Below, in pieces: positions 12,714-14,065 of a stretch of DNA of 37,419 bases. The DNA comes from Candidatus Gastranaerophilales bacterium (GTDB lineage Bacteria; Cyanobacteriota; Vampirovibrionia; Gastranaerophilales; Gastranaerophilaceae), in assembly GCA_944324425.1 (NCBI GenBank), contig CALUWE010000019.1, forward strand, positions 1-37,419. The letters run 5' to 3'. The translations under genes and the position numbers were made by a program. The notes below the pieces were generated by a model. The model worked only from the letters and a program-made list of their open reading frames with translations. It was not told where the DNA came from and searched no databases. Positions within the stretch are counted from its first letter, which is position 1; each line of letters begins with the position of its first letter.

Positions 12714-12717
12714 AAAT

Positions 12718-12800
12718 TGGGCAGGATGGGATTTGAACCCACATGCATTTTATTGCGCCGGCTCCTGAAACCGGTGCGTCTACCATTTCGCCACCTGCCC
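12718..12800 (-). tRNA. tRNA-Leu, anticodon CAG
   Basis: 83 nt on the minus strand. The acceptor stem GGGCAGG/CCTGCCC is closed by discriminator A. The D-arm is in GGCGAAATGGTAGACGC, and the anticodon arm CCGGT-TTCAGGA-GCCGG gives CAG (reads CUG). A long variable arm is typical of type II tRNA-Leu, and the T-arm contains GGGTTCAAATCCC. No CCA is encoded. Confidence 0.95.
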
Positions 12801-12816
12801 AAAAAGCCTTCTTTAT

Positions 12817-12843: not shown

Positions 12844-12914
12844 CCTTGAAGCCCGCATTTATAAACTTGTTTGTTTTTTATTTATGTATTTTTTTCAAAA
12901 TTGCATAATTTTTA

Positions 12915-12945
12915 TTGATTTTAAAACTATTATGGTGTAATAGTT
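12915..12945 (+). promoter_or_regulatory. Promoter and candidate operator of the XRE-family regulator gene
   Basis: A perfect 8-bp inverted repeat, AACTATTA-TGGTG-TAATAGTT, spans 12925-12945. A -35-like TTGATT (12915-12920) and a -10-like TAATAG (12938-12943) at 17-base spacing bracket it, so the repeat would cover the spacer and the -10. The regulator ATG follows at 12977. This is the classic layout of an autorepressed XRE gene; binding is inferred. Confidence 0.6.
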
Positions 12946-12976
12946 AATAAAAAGAGGTAAAAATTTTAGGTTAATT

Positions 12977-13639
12977 ATGCACAAAAGATTGAAAGAATTA
13001 AGAAAAGCGCTGAATATTCAGCAGGGCGAGTTTGCAAAAAACATCGGTATTTTACAACAACAGTTAAGCAAGTATGAAAGAGGTGAAAACAAACCGTCCG
13101 CAGATTTCTTTATAAAGTTAATTGAAAAAACAAATGTAAATTTAAATTGGCTTTTAACCGGCAAAGGGAATATTTTTGCTTCTGATTCTGATGAAAAGAA
13201 TGCTCCCGATGCGGTTGAAATTATTTATTATGAAAACCCCACACTTATTGAAACCATTAAAAATCCTGTAATTACAAGCATTTGGCTGGATAGGGAATTA
13301 ATTCATGATGTTTGGCACAAGCACGAAAAAAATTTAAGAACCCTGCAAATGCCGGGGGATACAATGGATGGCGGCGAGACTCCAATTAAGAATAAAGACA
13401 TGTTGATTGTTGATATATCCGATACCAATATTCAAGCAAGCGGAATCTTTGTTTATACTACAAAAAACGGCAGTTTAATTTTTGTGAACGGCATAAAACA
13501 GTCTCCGGACGGTACGTATAGATTTTATTTCAGAAATACGGGCTATAAGGAAATTCACTATACATTGGAAGATTTAGAAAAACTTGGCTTTAAAGTGATA
13601 GGCAGAGTGGTAAAGAATATCACAAGCAGTTTTTGCTGA
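12977..13639 (+). CDS. XRE-family regulator with LexA/S24-like C-terminal domain, probably not self-cleaving
   Basis: 220 residues. Residues 1-65 are a Cro/CI helix-turn-helix (RLKELRKALNIQQGEFAKNI, QQQLSKYERGENKP, LNWLLTGKG). Residues about 120-215 resemble the S24/LexA peptidase fold (PGDTMDGGETPIKNKDMLIVD, then IFVNGIKQSPDGTYRFYF). By alignment with the family pattern GDSM...DGD...VKR, the catalytic Ser is Thr129 and the catalytic Lys is Asn171, so RecA-stimulated self-cleavage appears lost. It probably binds the inverted repeat in its own promoter. AGG six bases before ATG is the ribosome-binding site. It lies between tRNA-Leu and three unknown small genes, and could be a resident regulator or a phage-repressor remnant. 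Confidence 0.85.
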   Translation: MHKRLKELRKALNIQQGEFAKNIGILQQQLSKYERGENKPSADFFIKLIEKTNVNLNWLLTGKGNIFASDSDEKNAPDAVEIIYYENPTLIETIKNPVITSIWLDRELIHDVWHKHEKNLRTLQMPGDTMDGGETPIKNKDMLIVDISDTNIQASGIFVYTTKNGSLIFVNGIKQSPDGTYRFYFRNTGYKEIHYTLEDLEKLGFKVIGRVVKNITSSFC

Positions 13640-13726: not shown

Positions 13727-14065
13727 TTAGCGAGACAAGTCTTCTTCGTATACTGCGACAAAGAAGTTATAGTCCCCTAATGCCTCTTTATACAACTTGT
13801 GCATTGAACCTTCTTTTGGCGTTCCAATGCTGTTTTTGTACTGAAGATATGCAAAATTAAGCATGGTTTTTTGGTATTCATACGCTCTTCTTGCTTCTTC
13901 AGGTTTTAATTTAATGGGGATAATACGGGAGTTTTCTTTGTTTTGTTCTCCTGCTTCGGTTGAAATTATTTCAAGCGATTCGATTGAGAAATCATTTTCT
14001 CTTTTTGCAAAATCGGTTTCTGGGGCAATCCGGTTCGGCTCGTTTTTCAAAATTTCGGTTTTCAT
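13727..14065 (-). CDS. Hypothetical protein, 112 residues
   Basis: Not recognised. The N-terminal half is polar and probably disordered (MKTEILKNEPNRIAPETDFA, SIESLEIISTEAG). The C-terminal half looks helical, with KLKPEEARRAYEYQKTMLN and several Tyr and Phe (YNFFVAVYEEDLSR). No signal peptide, membrane segment or metal motif is seen. It faces the XRE regulator gene, with a shared terminator hairpin between them, and is transcribed divergently from the two small plus-strand genes. Clean reading frame, a ribosome-binding AAAGGC-like stretch upstream and consistent codon use support a real gene. Confidence 0.6.
   Translation of the reverse strand: MKTEILKNEPNRIAPETDFAKRENDFSIESLEIISTEAGEQNKENSRIIPIKLKPEEARRAYEYQKTMLNFAYLQYKNSIGTPKEGSMHKLYKEALGDYNFFVAVYEEDLSR

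Follow-up and report, generated by a model that had tools for sequence, protein, structure and literature searches.

The regulator gene and its surroundings

The window, i.e., the whole stretch of 37,419 nucleotides analyzed here, is a chromosomal stretch of Candidatus Gastranaerophilales, judged by its nearest named relatives (MAGs of the order). It contains an intact open reading frame (12977..13639, + strand) for a regulator of 220 amino acids that combines an XRE helix-turn-helix with a pseudo-S24 domain and belongs to a clade of 10 proteins, referred to here as the subfamily. The gene is flanked on one side by tRNA-Leu (CAG) (12717..12801, - strand), with gapA beyond it, and on the other by a convergent gene for a protein of 112 amino acids (13727..14065, - strand), past which lie small open reading frames and then ATP-synthase genes (named by eye). 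When the list of open reading frames in the window was read by eye, we recognized no phage gene beside the regulator, and its surroundings were housekeeping genes. Upstream of the gene lie a putative -35 element (TTGATT, 12915..12920, + strand), which is invariant in the window genome (G000) and in the genomes of two close orthologues (G001 and G008), and, after a spacer of 17 nt, a putative -10 element (TAATAG, 12938..12943, + strand).

The N-terminal region (residues 1-64; 12977..13168, + strand) is a 434/P22 repressor-like XRE/CI helix-turn-helix that matches Pfam HTH_3 (E 1e-14) and Phage_CI_repr (9.4e-7), and the phage-repressor profile phrog_4 spans residues 2-215 of the protein (E 1.3e-26). 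The S24/LexA-like domain occupies the C-terminal region (about residues 80-218; 13214..13630, + strand); Pfam S24 gave no match in the window protein at E values up to 1, and a homologue that is 61% identical (L018) exceeds the Pfam S24 cut-off. The C-terminal domain models as a LexA/UmuD fold. In an AlphaFold model made from eight input sequences, which has a mean pLDDT of 56 and is thus of low to modest confidence, the C-terminal half compared with UmuD' at a Z score of 10.1 and with the C-terminal domains of LexA and lambda CI at about 9, while the N-terminal half corresponded to a 434/P22-type helix-turn-helix. The best Foldseek match of the same model was CI of phage 186, which is not known to carry the Ser-Lys dyad. 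An earlier model from four input sequences was discarded (pLDDT 37).

Loss of the catalytic dyad and cleavage site

A first-pass annotation of the window had placed Thr129 (codon 13361..13363, + strand) and Asn171 (codon 13487..13489, + strand) at the positions of the catalytic Ser and Lys, and had proposed an alignment with S24 repressors as a check. We aligned the 10 subfamily proteins, from nine genomes, with 16 relatives (13 genomic and three from viral contigs) and used the same set for a tree. The genomic sequences came from 57 places found in the genomes of the order, 23 of which were aligned (10 subfamily members and 13 full-length relatives); the remaining 34 were left out, being mostly matches to the helix-turn-helix only, along with two that contain stops and one that is partial (G239:C221). 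Five viral loci yielded the three distinct viral proteins in the tree.

The alignment confirmed both positions. All 16 relatives carry Ser and Lys in these columns and none of the 10 subfamily members carries both. The Ser column of the subfamily reads T, T, T, S, G, L, I, Y, T, C, and the Lys column contains Asn in eight members, Lys in G217, and Cys in G239b. Profile alignment to E. coli UmuD likewise put the columns of Thr129 and Asn171 on the GDSM and VKKL motifs. The spacing between Asn171 and Asn187, 16 residues, equals the spacing between Lys and Asn in the relatives, so a gap artefact does not explain the register of the alignment. Of the 16 relatives, 12 have the Ala/Cys-Gly cleavage site, vs none of the 10 subfamily members; in the window protein EIIYYENPTLIETIKNPV replaces the Ala-Gly or Cys-Gly. 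The subfamily forms one clade (support 99/98, recovered in 100% of 200 bootstrap trees) whose neighbors are dyad-bearing repressors of prophages and viral contigs. Since one member retains the Ser (G125) and another the Lys (G217), the residues were lost stepwise, and the functions of individual members may differ.

Because the subfamily as a whole lacks a complete dyad and the cleavage site while the domain is under selection, the conclusion that the window regulator would not undergo RecA-stimulated self-cleavage is strongly supported. The same had been expected in the first-pass annotation from the two residues, and the scissile Ala/Cys-Gly adds a third missing element to that prediction. 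Cleavage might nevertheless continue by other means, with Thr as the nucleophile or with another protease making the cut, as Thr can be a nucleophile and occupies the Ser position in four of the 10 members. However, the remaining members carry S, G, L, I, Y, and C there, and there is no general-base Lys or scissile bond either, so we regard continued cleavage as very unlikely. With self-cleavage lost, it is natural to infer that something other than RecA-driven cleavage throws the switch, and the phage-derived regulator probably answers to another signal.

Selection on the C-terminal domain

In comparisons of the three orthologues (G000, G001, and G008), the C-terminal domain has a dN/dS of 0.028-0.033 at a dS of 0.9-1.4, a range that is near-saturated to saturated, and the whole gene has a dN/dS of about 0.04-0.05 at high synonymous divergence. 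The loss of catalytic residues and cleavage site is what a decaying remnant might display; the low dN/dS and the reading frames and promoter that are intact in all three orthologues come close to refuting decay, which we consider extremely improbable. Strong purifying selection together with the LexA/UmuD fold indicates that the putatively inactive S24 domain is being maintained rather than decaying, and these data indicate that it has a role independent of protease activity. A self-cleaving phage switch whose trigger has been dismantled in all its parts, with the fold still strongly selected, is a clean case, and one that opens the question of what S24 domains do besides self-cleavage.

Distribution and probable phage origin

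Genes of the subfamily occur in at least nine of 383 genomes of the order, three of the nine in the window's genus; this count is a lower bound, since at most seven candidates per genome were scored. Scoring all candidates in 41 genomes of one genus revealed no further members. We found an empty site in three congeners that lack the regulator (G003, G005, and G006), where tRNA-Leu directly adjoins the gene for the 112-amino-acid protein. In a fourth congener without the gene (G002) the tRNA has different neighbors, and G004 and G007 lie outside this comparison of the locus; in the G004 assembly, which is 85% complete, we found neither the regulator nor the gapA/tRNA locus. The absence of the regulator from congeners could be loss, not gain.

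Dyad-bearing relatives are found in viral contigs, one of them adjoining a Mu-type transposase, and a prophage in G239 carries two subfamily copies along with a terminase, an integrase, and an Erf-like protein. A search with two query sequences found no subfamily members in viral contigs. The simplest reading of these sequences is a phage origin of the regulator followed by residence in the host. With phage relatives that keep the dyad, copies in a prophage and in hosts, and empty sites all at hand around one small clade, the steps that led from a phage repressor to a host regulator can be traced.

The G239 prophage (L068, C24:15000-29000) has an ORF6N anti-repressor gene between its two pseudo-S24 repressor genes, whose catalytic positions are T/N in one and C/C in the other. 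The first-pass annotation had suggested that a ligand or an antirepressor switches the window protein. That the switch is something other than RecA-driven cleavage holds as an expectation from the lost cleavage, and the antirepressor is supported indirectly, by this ORF6N gene; no cognate antirepressor gene was seen beside the regulator in the window's list of open reading frames.

These observations also bear on whether the window protein could be a stranded immunity repressor of a prophage, retained for blocking incoming phages with the same operators and freed by antirepressors of phages instead of a host signal. The two copies beside an ORF6N anti-repressor in G239, the scattered presence in at least nine of the 383 genomes, and the dyad-bearing relatives in viral contigs are consistent with such a role. 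Against it, no phage genes were recognized beside the window gene, the viral contigs yielded relatives and, with two queries, no subfamily member, and four members in four genomes (G125, G216, G092, and G217) adjoin a gene for a LuxR-type response regulator. We consider an immunity repressor unlikely.

In these four genomes the regulator gene is divergent from the gene for the LuxR-domain response regulator (Pfam on three of the four), and the G009 gene diverges from one for a LuxR-domain protein of 93 amino acids. LuxR-type response regulators are a family with several members per genome. The partners in G217 (L067:4320-5033) and G125 (L018:4045-4734) have what we take by eye to be atypical receiver motifs. 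In the former, Asn presumably stands at the expected acceptor Asp; in the receivers of G125 and G216, QK presumably stands at the expected acidic pair. Both divergent partners, i.e., regulator and response regulator, may thus have lost their usual triggers. In the G009 member (L012:4667-5413) the pseudo-S24 domain is joined to another N-terminal helix-turn-helix, one that resembles its counterpart in the dyad-bearing repressor of G190, an apparent domain swap.

The promoter and its inverted repeat

The promoter of the gene, at 12905..12964, contains a perfect inverted repeat with arms of 8 bp, AACTATTA-TGGTG-TAATAGTT, at 12925..12945. The first-pass annotation had described it as a perfect operator lying between the -35 and -10 elements and had suggested that the gene is autoregulated. 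The repeat is exact; its placement needs correction, as the right arm covers the -10 element. Dinucleotide shuffling of the 175-nt intergenic region produced a perfect repeat of this grade (arm of at least 8, loop of 0-10) in 35% of cases, and shuffling of the 60-nt promoter did so in 8%. Furthermore, the repeat is broken in both G001 and G008, whose orthologues are 90% identical. The genome-wide search for further AACTATTA-n5-TAATAGTT copies, which had been put forward as another check, returned no second exact copy, and near-copies with up to three mismatches are found at 35 places vs 97 for the reversed control. The two best-looking near-copies that were checked (C1:17533 and C9:38227) both lie inside open reading frames and were rejected as operators. 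Being at chance level, unconserved, and present in a single copy, the perfect repeat is unproven as an operator, and since it also overlaps the -10 element, the case for autoregulation through it is weak.

Autoregulation may instead be possible through a conserved element in the promoter spacer, TAAAACTATTATGGTGTA (12922..12939, + strand), whose left half is the left arm of the repeat. The promoters of G000, G001, and G008 all keep TTGATTTT[A/T]AAACT[A/T]TT..G[A/G]TGTA. The element, the best upstream match to a motif with the consensus AACTAATTAGTT, resembles half of that motif, i.e., a matching half-site is followed by a poor second half. In the divergent promoters of G125, G216, G092, and G217, ACAACTAATTAGTT or a near match to it sits in the spacer of a promoter whose TTGAC-type -35 and whose -10 are directed away from the regulator gene (both read by eye). 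Scored with a matrix from these four divergent promoters, the window element reaches a shuffle p of 0.018 and its orthologues 0.014 and 0.019; with matrices that include the transporter sites described below, p ranges from 0.005 to 0.07 (three orthologues, three matrices).

Candidate targets

The exact 12-mer AACTAATTAGTT occurs once in the window genome, 34 nt before a gene for a CitMHS-family transporter; this promoter, at C3:62030-62075, is referred to here as P1. Directly after the transporter gene, with no gap, comes ruvB (L163:1677-4076, on C3 of G000), and the promoter of this operon contains a perfect palindrome of 22 bp, AATTAAACTAATTAGTTTAATT. The sequence TTAAACTRATTAGTTTAA is kept at P1 in G000, G001, G004, and G008. 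With a scoring matrix built from the divergent promoters of other genera, P1 scores 14.1-17.7 in these four genomes vs at most 6.6 in G002, G003, G005, G006, and G007. A paralogous CitMHS transporter lies behind a gene for the gamma subunit of oxaloacetate decarboxylase (P2), and in the four genomes that keep the P1 site, P2 carries one or two motif sites, of which some differ at up to two positions; in G006, no motif site was found close upstream of the paralogue's gene. G004 has both sites, and the regulator was not found in its 85% complete assembly. The motif is present at promoters of the citrate-transporter family only in the window's clade.

Allowing one mismatch, the motif is found at 2, 10, 5, and 7 places in G000, G001, G004, and G008 and at 2, 0, 2, 2, and 0 places in G002, G003, G005, G006, and G007. 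Most sites viewed closely fall inside genes, so we rejected this enrichment as evidence by itself; we treated those in L153 and L157, which had been classed as intergenic, as coding because the same sequence is inside a gene in L147.

The motif might belong to another regulator, with the link to the transporters a coincidence, an alternative that concerns the targets only and not the nature of the protein. Exact matches are few (1, 2, and 2 in the genus carriers vs 1 each for the reversed control), the carrier genomes are one clade and thus one evolutionary contrast, and G005, which lacks the gene, also has an intergenic site with one mismatch. In addition, the motif itself led to P1 in G000 and to P2 in G001 and G008, which makes these initial matches circular. 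On the other hand, the matrix from other genera separates the P1 carriers from five congeners, two paralogous CitMHS promoters bear the motif, and G000 and G125 share an identical recognition-helix stretch. We judge the case for another regulator to be evenly balanced. It was the motif that led to the transporter promoters, and they come from a single clade, so as targets of the regulator they are a lead and not a finding; the candidate operator does make these targets directly testable.

At the regulator locus of the window's clade the LuxR partner is absent, in G217 the receiver Asp seems to be gone, and in G009 only the LuxR domain is left. One tentative scenario, to which we give little credence, is that the host rewired a phage repressor without its protease trigger: the old LuxR-type divergent partner (G125, G216, G092, G217, and G009) would have disappeared in the window's clade, leaving a promoter that resembles the old divergent one, the operator TTAAACTRATTAGTTTAA would have moved to the two CitMHS operons (with ruvB and with oxaloacetate-decarboxylase gamma), and the pseudo-S24 domain would sense a metabolite.

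SOS genes in the window genome

No LexA over the family cut-off was found in the window genome. Its sole strong S24 match is a UmuD with both Ser and Lys (C27:7347-7778, L019), which adjoins UmuC. The SOS genes examined were umuDC, while the exact AACTAATTAGTT precedes the transporter-ruvB operon. Near umuDC, the AACTATTA-n5-TAATAGTT repeat has no match with up to three mismatches, and contig C27 has no AACTAATTAGTT within one mismatch. With no motif found there at these mismatch limits, a LexA replacement at umuDC was set aside for the regulator.

Proposed mechanism and comparison with known systems

We consider it fairly likely that the window encodes a non-cleavable repressor of the S24 type, derived from phage and retained by the host, that is released by a ligand, a partner protein, or an antirepressor. 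In this reading, an XRE/S24 protein of the phage-repressor type that is now encoded in the host chromosome would form dimers that bind DNA with their N-terminal domains, and the inactive S24 domain would serve as the module for dimerization and signal reception. With RecA-stimulated self-cleavage presumably impossible, the ligand, partner protein, or antirepressor would throw the switch. The domain make-up, the clade-wide loss of dyad and cleavage site, the purifying selection, the patchy presence, and the empty sites of congeners are read from sequence; repression, dimerization, the operator, and the signal of the regulator we infer.

Such a regulator is uncommon but not unprecedented; in the open-licence PMC literature we found no publication on the subfamily or on S24 regulators of Gastranaerophilales. 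The window protein shares the XRE helix-turn-helix, the C-terminal S24 fold, and a full-length profile match with the repressors of lambda (CI), 434, and P22 (c2) (PHROG 4), but it lacks the catalytic Ser, Lys, and cleavage site and sits among housekeeping genes. LexA of Synechocystis PCC 6803 has a DNA-binding domain of the winged-helix LexA type, whereas the window protein has an XRE domain and also loses the Lys. The likeness lies in the S24 domain, since the cited account reports that this LexA controls non-SOS genes and has neither an Ala-Gly site nor the catalytic Ser (PMC7567884). Non-cleaved repressors that are relieved by antirepressors have been described, with Tum of phage 186 named in the passages drawn on here; the same passages describe GfoR and GtgR of the Gifsy phages, which belong to this kind, as being without the C-terminal domain, which the window protein keeps under constraint (PMC3121763). 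Non-canonical LexA proteins of Bacteroidetes are chromosomal regulators that combine a CI-type N-terminal domain with S24 and, as portrayed in the sections consulted, keep the dyad and the Ala-Gly site and run the SOS response, while the window protein is without the dyad residues and the site (PMC8565304). One group of these proteins reads CTAA-N5-TTAG according to the same sections, a half-site that resembles the half-site of AACTAATTAGTT with a different spacing between the halves (PMC8565304).
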